This document shows positions 1 through 40,614 of a DNA stretch of 42,738 bases, piece after piece; within the stretch, counting starts at the first letter, position 1, and the number at the start of each line of letters is the position of its first letter. Both the position numbers and the translations under genes were made by a program. The notes under the pieces were generated by a model, which was not told where the DNA came from, did not search any database, and was given only the letters and a program-made list of their open reading frames with translations. The stretch is from positions 1-42,738 of the forward strand of contig DTXZ01000004.1 in NCBI GenBank assembly GCA_012962155.1, given 5' to 3'. Source of the DNA: Aquificales bacterium. GTDB lineage: Bacteria; Aquificota; Aquificia; Aquificales; QOAS01.

Positions 1-1119
1 GCGGAGCTGGATAGGCTCAAAGAGGAAAAAATCAAGCAGGGTGTGGATGTTATAGACTTGGGAGTTGGAGACCCCGACCTTCCCACTCCTAAGGAAATTA
101 TAGAAGCGGGACAAAAAGCCTGCGAAGACCCCGCCAATCACAGATACCCGTCCTACAAAGGTCTCCCCGCCTTTAGAAAAGCGGTAGCCCAGTGGTATAA
201 GGAACGTTTTAATGTAGAGCTTGACCCCGATAAAGAAGTTGTTACCCTTATAGGTTCAAAAGAGGGTATAGCCCACTTTCCCTTGGCGTTTGTAGACGCC
301 TGCGATATAGTGATAGTTCCCGAACCCGCCTATCCCGTTTACAAAATAGGAACAATTTTTGCCGGAGGGATACCCTATACCGTCCCTCTAAAGGAGGAAA
401 ATAAATTTCTAATAAACCTTGACACTATTCCCGAGCAGATTGCCAAAAGGGCAAAAATAATTTGGGTAAATTACCCCAACAACCCCACTTCCGCCACCGC
501 TACCCGTGAATTCTACGAAAAGCTTATAGATTGGGCTAAAACTTATAACGTAATAGTGGCTTCCGACTTGGCATACTCCGAGATTTACTACGATGAAAAC
601 GATAAACCTCTCTCCATTTTGCAGATACCCGGTGCTAAAGATGTGGCAATAGAATTTCATTCCCTCTCTAAAACCTACAACATGACTGGTTGGCGTATAG
701 GAATGGCGGTCGGTAACGAAGAGTTGGTCCAAGGTCTCGGGAAGGTAAAAACCAACGTAGATAGCGGACAGTTCAATGCGGTTCAAATAGCGGGAATAGA
801 AGCCCTCAAAAACAGCGAAAAATACAGAAAACAAATAATTCCGATTTATGAAGAAAGAAGAAGGGTTATGACCGAAGCGTTGGAAAAAATCGGGTTAAAA
901 CCGTTTAAGTCCAATGCAACCTTTTACCTTTGGGTAAAAGTTCCCGAAGGGTACACCTCCGCGGAATTTACAAAACTACTTCTGGACAAAGCGGGTATAG
1001 TAGTTACCCCTGGAAACGGTTTCGGAGAAGCGGGTGAGGGATACTTCAGGATTTCATTAACCGTTCCCACCGAAAGACTACTGGAAGCGGCGGAAAGAAT
1101 TAAAAACCTAGTTCTGTAA
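1..1119 (+). CDS. dapL: PLP-dependent class I aminotransferase, LL-diaminopimelate aminotransferase-like; 5' end lies outside the window
   Basis: Frame is open from base 1 (AELDRLKEEKIKQGVDVIDLGVGDPDLPTP...), with no stop before the GTG at 43. PLP-lysine region SLSKTYNMTGWRIG and motif NYPNNPTSA are present. Confidence 0.8.
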   Translation, partial: AELDRLKEEKIKQGVDVIDLGVGDPDLPTPKEIIEAGQKACEDPANHRYPSYKGLPAFRKAVAQWYKERFNVELDPDKEVVTLIGSKEGIAHFPLAFVDACDIVIVPEPAYPVYKIGTIFAGGIPYTVPLKEENKFLINLDTIPEQIAKRAKIIWVNYPNNPTSATATREFYEKLIDWAKTYNVIVASDLAYSEIYYDENDKPLSILQIPGAKDVAIEFHSLSKTYNMTGWRIGMAVGNEELVQGLGKVKTNVDSGQFNAVQIAGIEALKNSEKYRKQIIPIYEERRRVMTEALEKIGLKPFKSNATFYLWVKVPEGYTSAEFTKLLLDKAGIVVTPGNGFGEAGEGYFRISLTVPTERLLEAAERIKNLVL

Positions 1120-1170
1120 TTTTTCCCTTTCACCTTTTTGGTGTACTCTTGGGGAAAATAATTCCCTTTA

Positions 1171-2613
1171 ATGGTTAACGAAATTATCAAACTTCCCGCC
1201 GTTCGGCTCAGGGAAGAAATAGCAAAAGGAAATATCTCCCCCACCGAAGTTGTTGAAACCTTTGCCAAAAGGATCCGGCAGGTTGAGGAAAAAATAAACG
1301 CCTTTGTAACCTTAATGGTGGAACAAGCTTACGATAAGGCCAAAAGGGTTAAGGGTGGAAAGCTCTTTGGAGTACCCATAGCGGTTAAAGATAACATACT
1401 CACCTACGGGGTTAAAACGACTTGTAGTTCCAAAATGCTTGAAAACTTCGTAGCCCCTTACGATGCAACGGTAAGCGAAAGGATAAAAAAAGAAGGGGCA
1501 ATAATTATCGGAAAAACCAATATGGACGAATTCGCAATGGGTTCTTCCACCGAGTATTCCGCTTTTGGACCGACCAAAAATCCCTGGGATTTGGAAAGGG
1601 TTCCCGGGGGCTCTTCGGGGGGGAGCGCCGCCGCGGTAGCATCCTTAATGGCACCCCTTTCCTTGGGTTCGGACACGGGAGGGTCTATCCGACAACCTGC
1701 TTCCTTTTGTGGAGTTATAGGATTAAAACCTACCTACGGTAGGGTTTCAAGGTATGGACTTGTAGCCTTTGCCAGTTCTTTAGACCAAATTGGACCCTTC
1801 GGAAGGTATACGGAAGATGTAGCCCTCCTTTTGGAAGTTATAAGCGGTAAAGACCCCAAAGACAGCACCTGTGCCGATAAACCGGTTCCCAACTTTGTAG
1901 AGGAGATAAAAAAACCTATAAAGGGATTAAAGGCGGGAATCCCCAAAGAAATATTTGACCTGGGACTCGGCGGTGAAGTTAGGGAAATATTTGAAAATTG
2001 GCTTGAAAAATTAAAAACCCAAGGTGTGGAATTAAAAACCGTAGAACTTCCTATGCTCAAGTATGCGATCCCCACTTATTATGTAATAGCAACTTCCGAA
2101 GCTTCTTCAAACCTCGCCAGGTATGACGGGGTCCGTTACGGCTACAGAACTCCCAAATATAAAGACTTGACCGAAATGTATACCAAAACCAGGGATGAGG
2201 GTTTTGGATCCGAAGTCAAAAGGAGAATAATGCTGGGAACTTTTGCGCTATCAACGGGATATTACGATGCTTACTACCTTAAGGCGAAAAAAATCCAAAG
2301 ACTCCTTTACAAGGACTTTGCGAGGGTATTTAAAGAGGTGGACGTAATCCTAACCCCTACAACCCCTACACCCGCTTTCAAATTCGGAGAAAAACTGAAC
2401 AACCCGATAGATATGTATCTGTCCGATATATTCACCGTTTCCGTAAACCTGGCAGGCCTTCCCGCGGTAAGCGTTCCCATAGGTCTTACCGCCAATAACT
2501 TACCCGTAGGAGGGCAGGTAATAGGAAAACCTTGGGAGGAAACCACCATATTAACCGTAGCCTACAACTGGGAAGAGATTTCTCAATTTCCCAGTTGGTT
2601 TCCCAATATCTAA
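1171..2613 (+). CDS. gatA: Aspartyl/glutamyl-tRNA(Asn/Gln) amidotransferase subunit A
   Basis: 480 aa. Amidase signature GGSSGGSAAAVA...LGSDTGGSIRQPASFCGVIGLKPTYGRVSRYGL. Confidence 0.95.
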   Translation: MVNEIIKLPAVRLREEIAKGNISPTEVVETFAKRIRQVEEKINAFVTLMVEQAYDKAKRVKGGKLFGVPIAVKDNILTYGVKTTCSSKMLENFVAPYDATVSERIKKEGAIIIGKTNMDEFAMGSSTEYSAFGPTKNPWDLERVPGGSSGGSAAAVASLMAPLSLGSDTGGSIRQPASFCGVIGLKPTYGRVSRYGLVAFASSLDQIGPFGRYTEDVALLLEVISGKDPKDSTCADKPVPNFVEEIKKPIKGLKAGIPKEIFDLGLGGEVREIFENWLEKLKTQGVELKTVELPMLKYAIPTYYVIATSEASSNLARYDGVRYGYRTPKYKDLTEMYTKTRDEGFGSEVKRRIMLGTFALSTGYYDAYYLKAKKIQRLLYKDFARVFKEVDVILTPTTPTPAFKFGEKLNNPIDMYLSDIFTVSVNLAGLPAVSVPIGLTANNLPVGGQVIGKPWEETTILTVAYNWEEISQFPSWFPNI

Positions 2614-2730
2614 TCTTTTTTTCAATTTTACAATAAAACTCATAGATAAATACGAGCCTCTTAAGTTTAATGCTTGGAAAACTCTCTTTAGTTAACATTG
2701 AATAAAAACTTTTATTTTTGGAGGTTTAAA

Positions 2731-5052
2731 ATGACAAAACCCGTAATTACCTGGACTAAGACCGACGAGGCTCCTCAGCTGGCAAGTTATTCTTTGCTGC
2801 CCATCGTTAAGGCTTTTACCAAAGATGCGGGCGTTGAAATTGATGTAAAAGATATTTCCTTGGCGGGAAGGGTTTTGGCCCAATTCGGTTACGAACCCGA
2901 CGACTTGGCCTACTTAGGAGAGCTCGTTTGGAAACCGGAATGCAATTTAATAAAACTCCCCAATATTTCCGCATCGGTTCCCCAGCTCATAGACACCGTT
3001 AGAGAACTCAAGAAGAGGGGATTTGACCTACCCGATTATCCCGAAGAACCCAAAACTCCCGAAGAGGAAGAAATTAAAAAGAAATACGACGCTTGCGTAG
3101 GTTCTGTAGTTAACCCCGTCATTAGGGCGGGTAACTCCATAAGAAAAATAGCCCAACCCGTTAAGGAATATGCAAAAAAACACCCCCACAAACTTAAACC
3201 TACCGACCCCCACCAGAAGTCCTACGTCGCCTATATGAAATCGGGTGACTTTTACGCACACGAAAAATCGGTGGTCCTTGAAAAAGATACCAAGCTCAAA
3301 TACGTTTTCGTGAACCCCAAAACCGGTGAGGAAATAGTTCTCAAAGAGATCCAAGGCGAAAAAGGAGACGTTATAGACGGAACTTGGATGAATAGAAAAG
3401 TCCTAAGGGAATTCTTTGAAGAGGTAATCCAAGACGCCAAAGAAAACGATATACTCTTCTCGCTTCACGTGAAGGCTACCATGATGAGAGTTTCCGACCC
3501 CGTAATATTCGGGGATGCCATAAGGGTTTACTACAAAAAATTGTGGGAAAAACACGGAGACCTTCTGGAGAAGATAGGGTTCAAACCCGAGAGGGGATTG
3601 GTAGACCTGGAAGAGAAAATGCAAAAACTCTCCCCCGAGGAGCAAGAGGCTATTAAGAAAACTATAGAGGAAATTTACAAAGAGAGACCCAGAATGTATA
3701 TGGTGGACTCCGACAGGGGTATAACCAACCTGCACAGACCCAACGATGTAATCATTGACGCATCCGTTCCCGCGGTAATCAAAAACGGTCTCCAAGGATG
3801 GGGTCCCCAAGGCGAAGAGGACGATGTAGTTATTACCGTTCCCGACAGAAGCTACTCTACTATGTACGACGAAATCGTTGAAGACATTAAAGTTAGGGGT
3901 CAGTTTGACCCTGCCGGTGTCGGTTCCGTTGAAAACATAGGTTTAATGGCTATAAAGGCGGAAGAATACGGTTCTCACGATAAGACCTTCTTTCCTCCCG
4001 AGGACGGAATTATTGAAATCCGCGACGAGGACGGCAACGTCCTTATGAAACACAGGGTCAACAAAGGCGATATTTACAGAAGCTGCCAAACAAAAGATGT
4101 TGCAATCAAAAACTGGATTGAGATAGCGGTTAAAAGGGCCAAGGAGGCCTCCCAAGAGTATAACGACAACGTTCCCATTGTTTTCTGGTTGGACAGAAGA
4201 AGGGCCCACGATAGAGAACTTATAAGAATTGTTAAACGCGAACTGCAAAGGTTGGAAAAGGAAGGAAAACTTGAGGGTGTTGACTGGTATATTATGCCCC
4301 CCAAAGATGCTATGAAATTCACCCTCAAACGCTTCAGGGAGGGTAAATACACAATCGCAGTTACCGGAAACGTTCTTAGGGACTATCTAACCGACCTGTT
4401 CCCCATAATAGAGGTTGGAACCTCGGCAAGGGCCCAATCTATAGTTCCCCTACTAAAGGGCGGAATACTCTTGGAAACCGGAGCGGGTGGTTCCGCACCC
4501 CGACATGTATCCCAGTTTCTAAAAGAAAGCCACCTAAGGTGGGACTCCTTGGGTGAATTCTTGGCGGTATACGAAGCTCTAATGCACGTATACAGAAACA
4601 ACCCCGAAAACAAAAAGGCTAAAGTTATCGCCGATGCGCTTTACAAAGCAATTTACAAATACCTAATGGAAGATAAAACTCCCAAAAGAAAAGTGGGTCA
4701 GCTAGACACCCGAGGTTCCCACTACTATCTGGCTAGATTTTGGGCGGAAGCCCTCGCCGAGCAAGGAGAGGATAAAGAACTGAAAGAAAAATTTGCTCCC
4801 GTTGCAAAAGAATTGGCCGAAAAAGAGGAGCAAATCCTTGAAGAGATAAGGGCTACCGAAGGAAAACCCGCGGGTATAGACGCTTGGTACTTCTTCGGGC
4901 TAAATCCCAACGACCCCGTTGAAAAACAAATTCTTGAAAAACTACCTCCCGAAAAACAGAAAGAAGTTATTGAACTCTACGAAAAAGTTGTATCCCTCAT
5001 GAGACCTTCTAAAACCTTCAACGCAATAATTGACAAGCTTTTAAATAACTAA
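2731..5052 (+). CDS. icd: Monomeric-type NADP-dependent isocitrate dehydrogenase
   Basis: GGAGG Shine-Dalgarno before ATG 2731 (the ORF track start at 2698 is upstream of it). Motifs MVDSDRGITNLHRPNDVIIDASVPA and IEVGTSARAQSIVPLLKGGILLETGAGGSAPRHVSQF...HLRWDSLGEF are typical of monomeric IDH. Confidence 0.93.
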   Translation: MTKPVITWTKTDEAPQLASYSLLPIVKAFTKDAGVEIDVKDISLAGRVLAQFGYEPDDLAYLGELVWKPECNLIKLPNISASVPQLIDTVRELKKRGFDLPDYPEEPKTPEEEEIKKKYDACVGSVVNPVIRAGNSIRKIAQPVKEYAKKHPHKLKPTDPHQKSYVAYMKSGDFYAHEKSVVLEKDTKLKYVFVNPKTGEEIVLKEIQGEKGDVIDGTWMNRKVLREFFEEVIQDAKENDILFSLHVKATMMRVSDPVIFGDAIRVYYKKLWEKHGDLLEKIGFKPERGLVDLEEKMQKLSPEEQEAIKKTIEEIYKERPRMYMVDSDRGITNLHRPNDVIIDASVPAVIKNGLQGWGPQGEEDDVVITVPDRSYSTMYDEIVEDIKVRGQFDPAGVGSVENIGLMAIKAEEYGSHDKTFFPPEDGIIEIRDEDGNVLMKHRVNKGDIYRSCQTKDVAIKNWIEIAVKRAKEASQEYNDNVPIVFWLDRRRAHDRELIRIVKRELQRLEKEGKLEGVDWYIMPPKDAMKFTLKRFREGKYTIAVTGNVLRDYLTDLFPIIEVGTSARAQSIVPLLKGGILLETGAGGSAPRHVSQFLKESHLRWDSLGEFLAVYEALMHVYRNNPENKKAKVIADALYKAIYKYLMEDKTPKRKVGQLDTRGSHYYLARFWAEALAEQGEDKELKEKFAPVAKELAEKEEQILEEIRATEGKPAGIDAWYFFGLNPNDPVEKQILEKLPPEKQKEVIELYEKVVSLMRPSKTFNAIIDKLLNN

Positions 5053-31889: not shown

Positions 31890-34800
31890 ATGGGGGAAAA
31901 GATAAAAGCTATATTTGAAAAGGCTTGTCCCAACTGCGGAGGAGCGATAAGCGATTACAGACTCAAAAAAGGGTTACCCTGTTACAAATGTCTACCTAAA
32001 ATAGAGAAAGAGGATAGTTACCTTGCCTGTTTGGAACTTTCCGCAACCCAGAGATTGCAAGGGGATTTTAAAGAAATTTGCCAACTTTCGGAGGCGACCG
32101 GGGACTTTTCCAACTTTTTTAAGAGTATTCATAAATCCCCCCCTTGGTCTTTGCAGATAGCTTGGTTTAAAAGATTTTTCCTCGGGAGGAGCTTTGCCCT
32201 TCTCGCCCCGACCGGTATAGGTAAAACCACCTTCGGGCTCACCTTGAGTTTTTATTTGGCGAGGGAAAAACGGCAAAAAAGTTACCTGATATTTCCAACC
32301 CGCCTTTTGGTGGAACAAGCTCTAAATAAACTCCGCAAAATGGGTGTTCCCGAAGATTACCTACTTTTCTTCGGAGAAAAACCTTCGGTAACCAAAAAAC
32401 AGAAGGAGGAGAGGTTAAAACGTCTCCGAAAAGGGGATTTTAGGATTTTGATAACTACTTCCATGTTTTTATATAGAAATATAGAAGAGATACCCAAAGG
32501 GGTTTTCTCTCTGGTTTTTGTGGATGACGTGGACAGTTTCCTAAAAACCGCCAAAAATATAGATAAGGTTCTGTATCTGCTCGGCTTTAGCCAAGAGGAC
32601 ATAGATTGGGCTTTTAGAATTATCCGCCTAAGGCGGGACCTCTCCCAAAGACCGGACGCCAAACCCGAAGATTGGGAAAAGCTAAGGGAGGAAGAGGAAA
32701 ATCTTAAAAAACATGCCCAAAGGGTTAGAAAAGGGGTTTTAATAGTTTCTTCCGCCACTTCCAACCCCAGAAGCGAGAGGATTAAACTATTTAGGGAACT
32801 TTTGGGATTTGAGGTAGGGCGTCCCCTCTTCTATTTGAGGAATGTGGTGGACGCCTACGAAGATAAATTTTTGGGCGACCAAAAGGTTATCTTAAACCAC
32901 AAACCGCTGTGGGATTTCGTCTACCAGTTTGTAAAAAAACACCCCAAGGGGGGACTTATCTATATTTCCCAAGATAGGGGTAAGGAAGAGGTAGACCGTT
33001 TGGTGGAATACCTCAACTCAAAGGGACTGAAGGTGGTCTCCTACGAAAAAATGGACAAACACCTACAGGATTATGAGGAGGGAAGGGTAAACGCCCTGGT
33101 GGGAATAGCTTCTTACAGAAACCCCTTGGCCCGCGGTTTTGATATGCCCCACGTGGTTCGGTATGCCCTCTTTGTGGGTGTTCCCAAACTAAAATTCACC
33201 CTGAAGGTGGAAGAGCATATATCCCACATACTTTGGGTGTTGCTCGCTTTGCGCCCCTTACTCGCCAAGGACGGGGAGCTAAAAGCAAAATACCTCCAAA
33301 AGTTGGACCGTTGGATAGAAAGGCTTAGGAGATACTCCTATCTATCGGAGGAATTTATTGAGCGGAATGAGCGCCTAAAGGAAATTATAGAGAAGATAAG
33401 AAACGAGGTAAGGGAGTTTATAGAAAACCCCCAAATCCTTGAGAGGATAAAAGAGAGTGAAGAGATCACCCTAAGGTGGGACGAGAAAGAGGGCTACACC
33501 CTAATAGTTGCGGATGTAACGGGATATCTTCAGGCGTCGGGTAGAACCTCCCGCCTCTATGCGGGTGGACTTACCAGAGGTTTTTCTCTAGTTTTGGTGG
33601 ACGACAAAAAAGCCTTTAACAACCTCAGGAAGAAAGTTAAATGGTTTAGCGACGAGATAGAGTTTACCCCTTTGGACAAGGTGGAACTGGAAAAACTCTT
33701 TGAGGAGATTGAAAAGGATAGACAAAAGGTGGTTAAGTTCCTAAAGGGTGAAATCCCCAAAGGTGCAAAAGAGCTTATTAAACCGGTATTGGTTGTAGTG
33801 GAATCTCCCAACAAGGCGAGAACCATAGCCAACTTCTTCGGAAAACCCCTAAGGAGGAGAATCGGAGATATAGACGTTATGGAGGTTTCCCTCGGAGATA
33901 AATTCCTAGCCGTAACCGCCTCAGCGGGACACATCTACGACCTAATAAAAAAGAATGAAGGAAATCTCTTCCACGGCGTAATAGTGGAAGGTTCCAAAAC
34001 AAACCCCAGCCACTTTATACCTGTATACGAACCGATAGAGCAGGAAACCCCTTCGGGAGGGGTCAGGGACAAAGAGGAAATTATCAACTCTTTACGTCAA
34101 GCTGGACTTGAGGTTGCGGAGGTTTACATAGGAACCGACCCCGACAGTATTACGGGTGACAGTAAAGTTCTCGTCAAGGTTGGGGATGAAATAAAACAGA
34201 TTACGGTAGAAAAACTATTCGAAGAACTAAAGGAGCGGCATGAAGTAGAGCTCCGGAACGGGCATGAGTATTTAAAACCGTCAGACCTTTACATTCCCGT
34301 TGTAGATAGGGATTTTAGCGTTAGGTTCGGAAGGGCTAAATACCTAATCCGCCACAAGGTTAGAAAACCTATATACAAAATAACAACCCAAAGTGGAAGA
34401 GAAATAAAGATTACGGGGGACCACTCCATCTTTAGGTTGGATGAAAACTTTACCCTCCAAGAAGAGAAACCCAGCCAACTCCGAGAAGGTGATTTTATAG
34501 TTGTAAACTCCCGCCTTCCGGAGATAAAAACGGGAAACCTTCAACCTAAAGGGGATTACGGAAGACAGATAGGTGATATCTTTGAGGATAGAATAAAAAA
34601 AATAGAACTTTTACCTATAGAGGAACAATACGTTTACGATTTTGAAACCGAAACCCAAAACTTTATAGCCAACAATATCCTTTGCCACAACACCGAAGGG
34701 GAAAAAATCGCCTGGGACCTTTACGAGATTTTAAAACCTTACAACTTCAACATTAGAAGAATGGAATTTCACGAGGTCACCAAAAGGGCTATTATTGAAG

Positions 34801-36113
34801 CCCTAAACAACCCCCGCCGGTTGGACGAAAACTTGGTTTCGGCCCAAATGGTTAGGAGAATTGCGGACCGCTGGGTGGGTTTCGAGCTGTCCCAACTTCT
34901 TCAGGAACACTTCAAGAAACCCTGGCTTAGCGCCGGAAGGGTTCAAACCCCCGTTCTAGGTTGGGTGATAGAGAGGGACAAACAATACCGAACCAAGAGA
35001 GGAGCGGTATTGGTATATCTACCCAATACGGAAAAGGAGAAAAGAAGGGTCTCCGTAAGTTGGGAATTTGAAGATAAAAAACTGGCAAGGGAATTTTACA
35101 AAAACCTAAAAGAGGTTGAGGTTAGGGTCGTTTCCAAACGCAAAGAGGAAAGGAAACCGGCCCCTCCCTTTACCACCGATACAATGCTCAAGGAAGCCAG
35201 CGAAAAACTACGCTTTAGCGCAAGTAAAACGATGAAATTGGCACAAGAGCTATTTGAAAGTGGCTTTATCACTTATATGAGAACCGACAGCACCCGCGTT
35301 TCCGACGTAGGAATAGCCATAGCCAAGGAATACATCGGCGAAAACTTTGGGAAAGAGTATTTCTATCCCAGACATTGGGGGGAAGGTGGAGCCCACGAAT
35401 GCATCAGACCGACCCACCCGTGGGATACCGAGGAAATCCGGTCAATGATGCTTAGCGGACAGATTCAGAGACTTACCGGCGACCACCTAAGGCTGTACGA
35501 ACTCATATTTAAACGCTTTATGGCCTCTCAAATGAGGCCTGCAACCGCCGAAGTTTCAAAGATAGAGGTAACCCCCCTTTTGGAGAGCGGAAATCTGCCA
35601 ACTCCAAAGGTTGAAAAGGAAGAGGTTACCGCGATTGTGGAGGACGGTTTTAACCTCCTTTTACCCTTGGACCTTTATTTTGTAAAGGAGGGAACTTTTA
35701 AAGTGGAAGAAGAACCGGACCAAAACCGGGAAAATGCCATAAAAGTCTACAAACTTGTACCTCTAGCCTACCCCTTTACCCAAGGAAGTTTAATAGAGGA
35801 GATGAAAAAACGGGGAATAGGACGCCCTTCGACCTATGCCCAAATAGTACAAAAACTGTTAGATAGAGGTTACGTCATAGAGAGGAAAAATTACCTTTTT
35901 CCCACCAAGCTGGGAAAGGAAGTTTATAGCTACCTTATACGGTTAAAGGCGGCGGAAAAATTCGTTAAGGAAGAATTTACGAGAATTTTGGAAGAACTAA
36001 TGGACAAGATAGAGAGGGGAGAGGTTCATTACATAGATGTTCTTAGAGATTTGTTTGAGGAAGTTTTGAAGGTTGAAATGGTCAGGAATAATAGGGAAGG
36101 AGATGAAAATTAG
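31890..36113 (+). CDS. rgy: Reverse gyrase (SF2 helicase-like + topoisomerase IA), interrupted by an in-frame intein
   Basis: 1407 aa. N-terminal zinc finger CPNCGGAISDYRLKKGLPCYKC, Walker A APTGIGKTT, VFVDDVDSFLK, topo IA VVESPNKARTIANFFGKP, active-site FITYMRTDSTRVS. The reading frame is continuous through the intein. Confidence 0.97.
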   Translation: MGEKIKAIFEKACPNCGGAISDYRLKKGLPCYKCLPKIEKEDSYLACLELSATQRLQGDFKEICQLSEATGDFSNFFKSIHKSPPWSLQIAWFKRFFLGRSFALLAPTGIGKTTFGLTLSFYLAREKRQKSYLIFPTRLLVEQALNKLRKMGVPEDYLLFFGEKPSVTKKQKEERLKRLRKGDFRILITTSMFLYRNIEEIPKGVFSLVFVDDVDSFLKTAKNIDKVLYLLGFSQEDIDWAFRIIRLRRDLSQRPDAKPEDWEKLREEEENLKKHAQRVRKGVLIVSSATSNPRSERIKLFRELLGFEVGRPLFYLRNVVDAYEDKFLGDQKVILNHKPLWDFVYQFVKKHPKGGLIYISQDRGKEEVDRLVEYLNSKGLKVVSYEKMDKHLQDYEEGRVNALVGIASYRNPLARGFDMPHVVRYALFVGVPKLKFTLKVEEHISHILWVLLALRPLLAKDGELKAKYLQKLDRWIERLRRYSYLSEEFIERNERLKEIIEKIRNEVREFIENPQILERIKESEEITLRWDEKEGYTLIVADVTGYLQASGRTSRLYAGGLTRGFSLVLVDDKKAFNNLRKKVKWFSDEIEFTPLDKVELEKLFEEIEKDRQKVVKFLKGEIPKGAKELIKPVLVVVESPNKARTIANFFGKPLRRRIGDIDVMEVSLGDKFLAVTASAGHIYDLIKKNEGNLFHGVIVEGSKTNPSHFIPVYEPIEQETPSGGVRDKEEIINSLRQAGLEVAEVYIGTDPDSITGDSKVLVKVGDEIKQITVEKLFEELKERHEVELRNGHEYLKPSDLYIPVVDRDFSVRFGRAKYLIRHKVRKPIYKITTQSGREIKITGDHSIFRLDENFTLQEEKPSQLREGDFIVVNSRLPEIKTGNLQPKGDYGRQIGDIFEDRIKKIELLPIEEQYVYDFETETQNFIANNILCHNTEGEKIAWDLYEILKPYNFNIRRMEFHEVTKRAIIEALNNPRRLDENLVSAQMVRRIADRWVGFELSQLLQEHFKKPWLSAGRVQTPVLGWVIERDKQYRTKRGAVLVYLPNTEKEKRRVSVSWEFEDKKLAREFYKNLKEVEVRVVSKRKEERKPAPPFTTDTMLKEASEKLRFSASKTMKLAQELFESGFITYMRTDSTRVSDVGIAIAKEYIGENFGKEYFYPRHWGEGGAHECIRPTHPWDTEEIRSMMLSGQIQRLTGDHLRLYELIFKRFMASQMRPATAEVSKIEVTPLLESGNLPTPKVEKEEVTAIVEDGFNLLLPLDLYFVKEGTFKVEEEPDQNRENAIKVYKLVPLAYPFTQGSLIEEMKKRGIGRPSTYAQIVQKLLDRGYVIERKNYLFPTKLGKEVYSYLIRLKAAEKFVKEEFTRILEELMDKIERGEVHYIDVLRDLFEEVLKVEMVRNNREGDEN
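34146..34691 (+). other. Mini-intein (182 aa) inside reverse gyrase, no homing endonuclease domain
   Basis: Splits TDPD|TEGEKIAWDL. Starts Ser1 (SITGDSKVLVK, block A); GREIKITGDHSIF (block B with TxxH); QYVYDFETETQNFIANNILCHN (blocks F/G ending His-Asn); +1 residue Thr. No LAGLIDADG between B and F. Confidence 0.93.
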
Positions 36114-37389: not shown

Positions 37390-39240
37390 TTATTCCCCTT
37401 CGGGTCTTTCCACAATGTAGAGGATGTCATCCCAAGGATGCCTGTAGAGAGGCATACCGAGGCGTTTTTCATCCAAGATATGACCAATAAATCCTATAGA
37501 CCTTCCGAGAACGAAGAAGGCGTTAAAGGCTCCCGCCTCTATGAGTTCCTCAATTTCCTTATCGCTGTAACCGAGAGCTTTAAACATATCTACGAGCAAC
37601 ACTCCGATGGTTCCGTCCACGTTGAGAATGAGGTTTTCTTTCTTTGCGGTTGTAACCTTTTCAACTTCTAGAGCGTAGTCTAAGTATTCCGTGCTGGGGA
37701 AATGTTTTTTAGCGTAGTTTTTGAGAAGTTCAACCCTTTTATCGGGGTTTTTAACAGACTTAATCCTGTGTCCGATACCGGGAATGTTTTTCTTCTCCAC
37801 GTTCTTCATATAGTCAACAAACTCATAGGGGTCCATGCCTTTGTCTTTTGCCATTTTAAAGTATTTGGCGGCACCGTCAATCGCTCCACCGAACCTGGGA
37901 CCTATGGTTAGAATTGCGGTAGCCAGTGCCGACATTAGGTCTTTACCCGCCCTGGCGGTAACCCTCGCATTGTGGGCTCCCGATACCGCGGGCCCGTGGT
38001 CTGCAACAATCTTAATAACCATATCTATAAAGTCGGAAGCCCATTTGGGGAACTTGCGCCTAAACCACAGGAGTCCTATAACATCCGCGATGGAGTAACC
38101 CTTTTCAACAACTTCGGAAATGGGTATTCCGCAGTAGGTAGCCTCTTCGCCCCTATCGTCGGAAATTGTGCATACAAAGTGGCTGGGCCTTCTAACCTTT
38201 CCTTGGGCGCGCAATTTGTTGTAATCTTCGGGAATGGGAGGAACTTCGGGTTCTTCAATTTCGGTTATTTCGCCTTTTGCCTTAAGTTCTTCGTAAACAC
38301 CCCTAATTAACTCGGGCAGGTCGTTGAAAGATTTGGGAACCAATGCCCCCGCTTCCCTAAGGGCTTGGTTTTTAGCGTCCGCCGTTTCCCTTTCCGCACC
38401 AGCTTTAGCACCGGCGTGCCCGAATTGAACTTCACCACCGAAATGTTTGGCAATGGTTCCGATACACCAGGCGATAACTGGTTTGGTTATTTTCCCGCTG
38501 GCTATAGCATCCGCAACTTTGTATTCCAGTTCTCCACCAACCTCTCCGAGCATTATCATAAATTTGATTTGGGGGTTTTCCTGGAACCTAAGCAGATGGT
38601 CTAAGAAATCGCTTCCGGGGAATCGGTCACCACCTATCGCAATACCTTCAACAATACCGTTTGCGTTTCTTGCGATAACATTGGCAAGCTCGTTAAACAG
38701 TCCCCCCGAGCGGGTAACAAGTCCAACGCTTCCGGGACGGTGGAGTTTCGCCTTTACGATGTTTTGAAGGGTTCCCCCCGCGTTACCTATTCTGAAAGCT
38801 CCCGCCGCTATTCCACCGACGGTAGCGGGGCCTATAATCCATTTACCCAGAGACTTAGCCTTTTCCCTCATTTCGAGGGCGAATCTTTCGGGGATTCCCT
38901 CCGCCGTTATAGCTACAGTCCTTATAGTGGGAATGTCAAGCGCTTCCATAGTAACCTTGTAAGCGGTTCTAAAGGATGCGAAGTTTACTAGAACATCGGC
39001 TTCGGGATGAGCCTCTGCCGCCTCTTGGCTAGACCTGTAGATAGGTATCAAAATTTCACCGGTTCCGTAAAAGAATTTTTCAAATTTTCTATTTTGGGTG
39101 GGGGCGACTATTGCCACGATAGAGGGGCTTCTACCCACGAGGTAGTCGTAATCAAGCATCCTCTGAATTGCATTAGGGTTGAGGTTCCAAAAGATTGCCT
39201 TTGTATTCCTGTCAAACAAAAGATATTCGGGTTTTGCCAT
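37390..39240 (-). CDS. aclA: ATP citrate lyase, citrate-synthase-domain/alpha subunit
   Basis: 616 aa. Succinyl-CoA synthetase-like half with phospho-His motif VQFGHAGAKAGAE; citrate-synthase-like C-terminus GPAVSGAHNARVTARAGKDLMSALATAILTIGPRFGGAIDGAAKYF...IPGIGHRIKSV. Confidence 0.94.
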   Translation of the reverse strand: MAKPEYLLFDRNTKAIFWNLNPNAIQRMLDYDYLVGRSPSIVAIVAPTQNRKFEKFFYGTGEILIPIYRSSQEAAEAHPEADVLVNFASFRTAYKVTMEALDIPTIRTVAITAEGIPERFALEMREKAKSLGKWIIGPATVGGIAAGAFRIGNAGGTLQNIVKAKLHRPGSVGLVTRSGGLFNELANVIARNANGIVEGIAIGGDRFPGSDFLDHLLRFQENPQIKFMIMLGEVGGELEYKVADAIASGKITKPVIAWCIGTIAKHFGGEVQFGHAGAKAGAERETADAKNQALREAGALVPKSFNDLPELIRGVYEELKAKGEITEIEEPEVPPIPEDYNKLRAQGKVRRPSHFVCTISDDRGEEATYCGIPISEVVEKGYSIADVIGLLWFRRKFPKWASDFIDMVIKIVADHGPAVSGAHNARVTARAGKDLMSALATAILTIGPRFGGAIDGAAKYFKMAKDKGMDPYEFVDYMKNVEKKNIPGIGHRIKSVKNPDKRVELLKNYAKKHFPSTEYLDYALEVEKVTTAKKENLILNVDGTIGVLLVDMFKALGYSDKEIEELIEAGAFNAFFVLGRSIGFIGHILDEKRLGMPLYRHPWDDILYIVERPEGE

Positions 39241-39294: not shown

Positions 39295-40614
39295 TTAAGA
39301 AGAGCTTTCCGCCTTTTCATCGTCTACGAGAGCTTTTTTAACTATAGCGGTCATGTGGGTTTCGGGACCGTAAACCTCTATTGGAAGGCCCAATTCTTCC
39401 GCCGCCTTTTTAATTCTTGCGAGACCTATTTCGTAGTTGGGCCCCCCCCTTCTTACGTAGATTTTTACACCAACCTCTTTTAGTTTGTCCGCGTATTCCT
39501 TCATTGCGTCTATAATTCCGTCAAAGGTTTTGGCTACGTCGGTAAAGTTTGCTATAGCCCCACCGATGATTAGTATTTTTGGTTTGCCGGATTTGTGTTT
39601 TTGTCGGGTCATAAGGTCAAAGAGGGTTTTAACGTATTCTCTAGTTTCCGTTCGGGAAGGGTTTCCGGAATATTCCCCGTAGTTTGCCAATTCTTTAACA
39701 AATCCCAGGTCAGCTACGGTATCGGAGTAAACAACCGATGCACCTCCACCCGCAATTAGGAGCCATACCCTACCTTCGGGATTGAGAACGGTAAGCTTCA
39801 GGGAAGCACCGGATTTTTCGTCTAGTTCTTTAATGTATTTCTCTTCGGGGGTCAGTTCCCTACCGAACCCCGCGGGGAAGGTTACATCCCCCCATTTTCT
39901 TCCTGCAACGAATTGGGCGGTGTCGTCCAATCTTGCAACCATATCAAGGGGGAATACCTTGTTGTCCTTTAACACTAAGGGGTTAATCTCCAAGTATGCA
40001 AAGTGGAGGTCTTTAAAGTATTTATAGAGCCTTTTAACAAATTCTGTGTAATTTTTTTTATCCTCTATTTCTTCGGGAATATTTTCCTCTATTAGTTTGA
40101 AAGCTTCCTCTTCACTTGCCAGAATGGGAATAGTTACTTCTTTAACCTTATCCCAGTTTTCCTCTACCTCTATACCACCGAATGCGGACATAAAAATCTT
40201 ATCACCTTGTTCGGAGAGTGTCATTGCCACGTAATACTCCTCCTTTTGCTCGTGGGGAATGAAAGGTTCAACTATAAAGTGGGTAAGTTTCCCCTTTACA
40301 CCCTTTATTTCTATCTCTTCCCCCATTTTTTCTTTAATCCATTTTTTGACGTCCTCCCAAGTAACGTCTCCGGGGGTGTTTATCTTGTAAAGAACCAAAC
40401 CGAGTTTCCCCCTTTTTCCAAAGAGCATGTCGGGTTTTGCAACCAAAGGGGTTTCCTTAACCCAAGGGTGTTCCTCGGGAATTTTATCCAAATCGGTTTC
40501 GGGGGTTATTAATATGCTTTTAAAGTCGTACTCAAATTCGCCGCCGAAGTAGTCTTTCCAGTTTTTAGCTAAGATTCTTTTGGCGTCAAACTCTCTGATA
40601 GCTCTCTGAGCCAT
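39295..40614 (-). CDS. aclB: ATP citrate lyase, ATP-grasp/beta subunit
   Basis: 439 aa. MAQRAIREFDAKRIL, LVAKPDMLFGKRGKLGLV, FVEPFIPH, RRGGPNYEIGLARIKKAAEELGLPIEVYGPETHMTAIVKKAL. AGGAGG SD. Confidence 0.94.
   Translation of the reverse strand: MAQRAIREFDAKRILAKNWKDYFGGEFEYDFKSILITPETDLDKIPEEHPWVKETPLVAKPDMLFGKRGKLGLVLYKINTPGDVTWEDVKKWIKEKMGEEIEIKGVKGKLTHFIVEPFIPHEQKEEYYVAMTLSEQGDKIFMSAFGGIEVEENWDKVKEVTIPILASEEEAFKLIEENIPEEIEDKKNYTEFVKRLYKYFKDLHFAYLEINPLVLKDNKVFPLDMVARLDDTAQFVAGRKWGDVTFPAGFGRELTPEEKYIKELDEKSGASLKLTVLNPEGRVWLLIAGGGASVVYSDTVADLGFVKELANYGEYSGNPSRTETREYVKTLFDLMTRQKHKSGKPKILIIGGAIANFTDVAKTFDGIIDAMKEYADKLKEVGVKIYVRRGGPNYEIGLARIKKAAEELGLPIEVYGPETHMTAIVKKALVDDEKAESSS

Follow-up and report, generated by a model that had tools for sequence, protein, structure and literature searches.

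The reverse gyrase gene in the window (the whole 42,738-nucleotide stretch of Aquificales DNA analyzed here) is interrupted within its TOPRIM motif by an insert that is, to judge by its sequence, a class 1-type intein with Ser1 and a +1 Thr and without a homing endonuclease (HEN) domain. This mini-intein is almost certainly descended from a 448-aa LAGLIDADG homing intein whose endonuclease has been lost.

A mini-intein in the TOPRIM motif of a bacterial reverse gyrase

The 1407-aa product of ORF 31890-36113 is a bacterial reverse gyrase, as the initial annotation had it: it scores 1342 bits with the equivalog model TIGR01054 (cutoff 471.7), combines the Pfam domains zf_Rg, DEAD, Toprim and Topoisom_bac, and has reverse gyrases as its top solved structures (PDB 4ddt, 1gku; 1.8e-182). 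The genome (G000) is a 1.12 Mb assembly of 93 contigs with a completeness of 95.49%. Elsewhere in the window, ORFs 37390-39240 and 39295-40614 resemble the two subunits of ATP-citrate lyase, as judged on the translation of the first only, and would fit a reductive TCA cycle. The features of the reverse gyrase gene are as follows:

31890-36113, + strand: reverse gyrase gene (helicase-like and topoisomerase IA halves), encoding a 1407-aa precursor, intein included
31890-34145, + strand: N-extein, ending in EVYIGTDPD
33786-34145, + strand: N-terminal part of TOPRIM (PF01751, residues 633-752), with the intein after its DxD motif
34146-34691, + strand: mini-intein of 182 aa without a HEN domain, residues 753-934 of the ORF (PF14890, TIGR01445, TIGR01443, presence/absence)
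34146-34181, + strand: block A, SITGDSKVLVKV, with the Ser1 nucleophile; invariant in the four aligned genus inteins
34395-34436, + strand: block B, GREIKITGDHSIFR, with T90 and H93 of the intein; invariant in the four aligned genus inteins
34509-34586, + strand: linker of 26 residues, SRLPEIKTGNLQPKGDYGRQIGDIFE, replacing the 292-residue HEN region of the congeners
34611-34673, + strand: block F, LPIEEQYVYDFETETQNFIAN, from sequence and alignment
34674-34694, + strand: block G plus the +1 codon, NILCHN/T (TIGR01443)
34692-36113, + strand: C-extein, starting with TEGEKIAWDL and containing the topoisomerase IA catalytic Tyr region ITYMRTDST (PF01131, 1.2e-93)

The insert translates without a stop into 182 residues (SITGDSKVLVK...FIANNILCHN) inside the single 1407-aa ORF. 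Its Hint splicing domain is recognized by the Pfam Intein_splicing model PF14890 (1.5e-24; 87 bits, cutoff 35.8), and the NCBIfam models intein_Nterm (TIGR01445, 46.6 bits) and intein_Cterm (TIGR01443, 18.3 bits) likewise score above their cutoffs. The class 1 residues, namely Ser1, the TGDH of block B (T90/H93), H181, N182 and Thr+1, are invariant in four copies, and the pairing of Ser1 with a +1 Thr noted earlier can be read directly in the sequence. The nearest PDB sequence relatives are inteins, in keeping with the original call, and all relatives down to an E-value of 0.01 are inteins or intein-carrying entries. In a fold search all 24 matches to an E-value of 0.001 were inteins, a result that counts as support only, the query being a low-confidence AlphaFold2 model built from four sequences (mean pLDDT 51). 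No LAGLIDADG family was found in the insert by a Pfam search, as befits a mini-intein.

Distribution of empty and occupied sites in Aquificota

We surveyed 136 Aquificota genomes with a degenerate pattern for the uninterrupted DPD-xEGEK site and a second pattern for the occupied left junction. The uninterrupted site was recovered in 113 of the 136 genomes, none of them from the two intein-carrying genera. The occupied junction was seen in seven, of which five (G000-G004) belong to the window's genus and two (G112 and G113) to another family; no genome among the 136 had both states. In relatives from other families of the order, those matches to the host protein that reach the site break at residue 752/753 and restart at 934/935, the exception being G039 (contig C8), whose C-terminal match is drawn from query residue 895. 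Therefore, the extein reads GTDPD-TEGEK after the removal of exactly 182 residues, the extent that had been assigned to the insert from the window alone. The insert is in frame and its removal gives a host sequence seen uninterrupted in homologs, in line with a class 1 intein. The flanking TDPD and TEGEK are intact in all genus copies whose ends are covered by the assembly, and the empty-site relatives have this part of the TOPRIM motif uninterrupted, which upholds the proposed point of insertion.

The segment also matches the Hint module family weakly, short of that family's cutoff, which could be taken as a sign that the segment is some other Hint-type domain or a conserved topoisomerase insertion rather than an intein. 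Such a reading is extremely improbable in light of the presence/absence pattern at the exact site, the HN/T C-terminal junction and the intein profiles above cutoff. The conserved insertion in particular, which the initial annotation had named as the alternative to be checked, is rejected by the 113 genomes with an empty site and the seven with the insert, and the intein reading stands. An assembly artefact can also be rejected because the site is occupied across several separately assembled genomes.

By manual count, the +1 position is Ala in 27 of the 127 uninterrupted sites listed and Thr in the remainder. Since Ala is unable to act as a +1 nucleophile, the sites with Ala should be non-permissive.

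Full-length, decaying and endonuclease-less alleles

The congeners G001 and G004 have a 448-aa intein at the same site, with the LAGLIDADG motifs GLWVGDGSYH and LKGLFSADGTVS and matches to PF14528 at 2.5e-18 and 6.6e-17, respectively, as against the LAGLIDADG-free insert of the window. A further congener, G003, has a 190-aa mini version. In the other family, the 446-aa intein of G113 has intact-looking motifs (PF14528, 2.9e-23), and that of G112, whose contig stops within the intein, has the decayed motifs GLWIKKGFYY and LEGIFESDILKK and matches PF14528 at 6.9e-4, below cutoff. The contig of G002 stops at intein residue 96 and that of G005 about 25 residues before the site. G006 contributes neither an empty nor an occupied state, as its matches leave out the junction: one, lying where contig C15 ends (G006:C15:6-200), covers 66 residues of the reverse gyrase N-terminal part (query 3-68), and the other is a C-terminal topoisomerase match of 29% identity in a 479-aa frame (G006:C71:24784-25776, query 1064-1403), which is probably topA.

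The two full-length congeners and the one decaying homolog show the intein degeneration that had been suspected from the window. Their presence at the same site indicates that the mini-intein arose by endonuclease loss inside bacteria. One full-length record, QOAS01000045.1, is titled Gammaproteobacteria; its reverse gyrase places it in the window's Aquificota genus and the assembly is probably mislabelled. No vector was identified among plasmids and phages, the matches of which to the full-length intein are distant (all <60% identity, and <=28.3% among the matches listed), and a scan of viral contigs returned no relative.

Several other inteins were seen in these genomes. The window's own genome has a second one in RtcB (G000:C46, ORF 540-3305, - strand), with TGGGHLSES as its first LAGLIDADG motif versus TGDGHLSED in the congener G001; hence, its endonuclease looks inactivated too. 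The congener G005 has a different intein in reverse gyrase, ending HN/CTYHRTDST beside the catalytic Tyr, on two near-identical contigs (G005:C8 and G005:C148). A DnaE-like ORF of the congener G002 (contig C94) has three inteins, and G006 has inteins in a UDP-glucose dehydrogenase-like protein and a UvrB-like protein. In the other family, an SMC-like protein of G112 (contig C130) has a mini-intein-like insert.

Selection and descent of the intein

The window and G001 have nucleotide identities of 0.902 in the N-extein and 0.896 in the C-extein, and for the splicing halves the values are 0.895 and 0.924. The corresponding NG86 dN/dS values are 0.083, 0.103, and 0.085 and 0.058; they are given for this pair only, dS being near or beyond saturation in most pairs except G000-G001 and G002-G003. 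Hence, the intein has evolved along with its host gene, and purifying selection acts on its splicing parts as it does on that gene. In their HEN regions, G001 and G004 have a nucleotide identity of 0.757, the same divergence as in their N-exteins (0.760), which suggests that the HEN was probably already present in the genus ancestor. The N-extein tree pairs the window with G001 as its sister (100/99) and joins G003 to G002 (97/99), so that mini and full copies are interspersed; the branch of G112 is very long and its placement unsure.

The splicing N-half of the window is 92% identical to that of G001 and 60% to that of G113. The inteins of the genus share 56-59% identity with the G113 intein; the figure is 50-54% for the first 150 residues of the C-extein and 55-56% for the longer C-extein of G000 and G003. 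For G112, identity to the genus is 56-60% in the splicing N-half and 44-46% in the N-extein. Transfer between lineages appears likely because nearer families have empty sites, with multiple loss as the alternative.

Origin of the two mini alleles

The 292-residue HEN region of the full copies corresponds to a linker of 26 residues in the window and 34 in G003. Both linkers share the elements LPE, IK, L.P and GR[QK]IGDI.E, of which the full copies match only the LP and GDI parts, and their similarity is significant in shuffle tests (p <=0.006 for protein, 0.001 for codon-shuffled DNA). The two mini linkers are closer to each other than either is to its full-length relatives. The window linker matches a simple deletion product of G001 at 28 of 78 nucleotides (p 0.235), leaving an origin by simple single deletion from this sister unsupported, and in the flanks the window and G001 remain highly identical as far as either edge of the linker. 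The G003 linker partially resembles a simple deletion product of the G004 HEN (48/102 nt, p 0.001).

We consider it somewhat probable that HEN+ and HEN- alleles were both present before the species diverged and were then sorted, or recombined in the splicing-domain flanks, so that both minis would go back to a shared mini ancestor. The two linkers are alike and yet the window's splicing-domain flanks follow G001 (0.895 nucleotide identity, against 0.749 to G003), and each half of the genus tree has mini as well as full alleles; on the other hand, the comparison is limited to a pair of mini copies and a single short linker, and the assemblies of G002, G005 and G006 cover the site incompletely. 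That the minis are instead two independent endonuclease deletions from a full-length ancestor is possible if rather doubtful. It would agree with the sister relationship of the window to the full-length G001, apart from G003 and G002, with a HEN that was probably present in the genus ancestor, and with the partial fit of the G003 linker to the G004 deletion product. However, it does not account for the LPE..IK..L.P..GR.IGDI.E elements, much of which are missing in the full copies, nor for the unlikeness of the window linker to the deletion product of its sister, and the shortness of the linkers also counts against it.

Moderate evidence, therefore, points to one mini allele that would predate the split, with modules exchanged by recombination. 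Going further, we tentatively raise the idea, which we hold to be plausible but short of probable, that HEN+ and HEN- versions of one intein persisted side by side through speciation within a bacterial genus, the internal module recombining while the flanks followed the host. The long-term coexistence of homing-cycle alleles is still argued in theory (PMC3229294). If true, the HEN+/HEN- coexistence at this site would be a natural case of the allele coexistence debated by homing models.

Predicted splicing and function

In class 1 splicing, Ser1, the block B Thr and His, the His-Asn pair and Thr+1 suffice for the reaction. The intein is translated inside the reverse gyrase precursor and should then remove itself via standard protein splicing, for which the purifying selection on the splicing halves is indirect evidence: an N-to-O acyl shift at Ser1, aided by Thr90 and His93 of block B, would be followed by transesterification to Thr+1 and by cyclization of Asn182, aided by His181, whereupon TDPD would be ligated to TEGEK and the TOPRIM metal site restored. 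As the break splits the TOPRIM DxD from the following EGE motif, the unspliced enzyme is probably inactive. The full-length ancestor, represented by the 448-aa inteins that congeners still have at this site and by its counterpart in another Aquificota family, would in the past have spread by homing. With its endonuclease lost, the mini-intein can no longer home, and it is probably kept because only splicing yields the enzyme. Two points weigh against this account: the low confidence of the structure model (mean pLDDT 51), and the window linker, which a simple deletion from the closest full-length intein does not explain.

It is unlikely that the retained linker switches splicing in response to temperature or substrate, so that the intein would regulate reverse gyrase and be more than a leftover. 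The analogy is with archaeal RadA inteins, in which a vestigial endonuclease loop governs temperature- and ssDNA-dependent splicing (PMC5790916), and reverse gyrase is indeed a heat-related DNA enzyme interrupted at a catalytic site; but within the intein conservation is lowest in the linker, and splicing alone would predict purifying selection on the splicing halves.

Comparison with known inteins

According to the initial annotation, archaeal reverse gyrases carry inteins; these would share their host enzyme with the window intein. The archaeal TFIIB mini-inteins (PDB 5o9i, 5o9j), which are also HEN-less and of similar length, are the best sequence (6.3e-12) and fold matches; they differ in host protein and site and have ~17-20% identity in the fold alignment. 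The full-length LAGLIDADG intein (QOAS01000045.1, JAADES010000004.1; G113 of family f4) occupies the identical site and is the same allele as that of the window, the congener full-length copies differing in having the 292-residue endonuclease region in place of the 26 residues. No reverse gyrase intein was described in the literature searched, coverage of which was partial, and none from bacteria in the available portions of PMC3655853, PMC12713403 and PMC9348778, which makes for a weak absence. Halobacterial intein alleles have large, mini and empty states with the same homing-cycle reading; they are archaeal and in other host genes, with topA listed and reverse gyrase not found in the available part of that source (PMC4071816). 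Inteins as a kind of allele are known; what is new, as far as the literature shows, is the bacterial allele and its series. At a single gene site in one bacterial phylum, this unusually complete local series comprises empty, homing-competent-looking, decaying and endonuclease-less states and covers most stages of the intein life cycle. It makes it possible to test within one genus a homing cycle that has often been assessed between species. For studies of splicing, it offers matched full and mini versions of a Ser1/Thr+1 intein whose host has a reverse gyrase and is presumably a thermophile.
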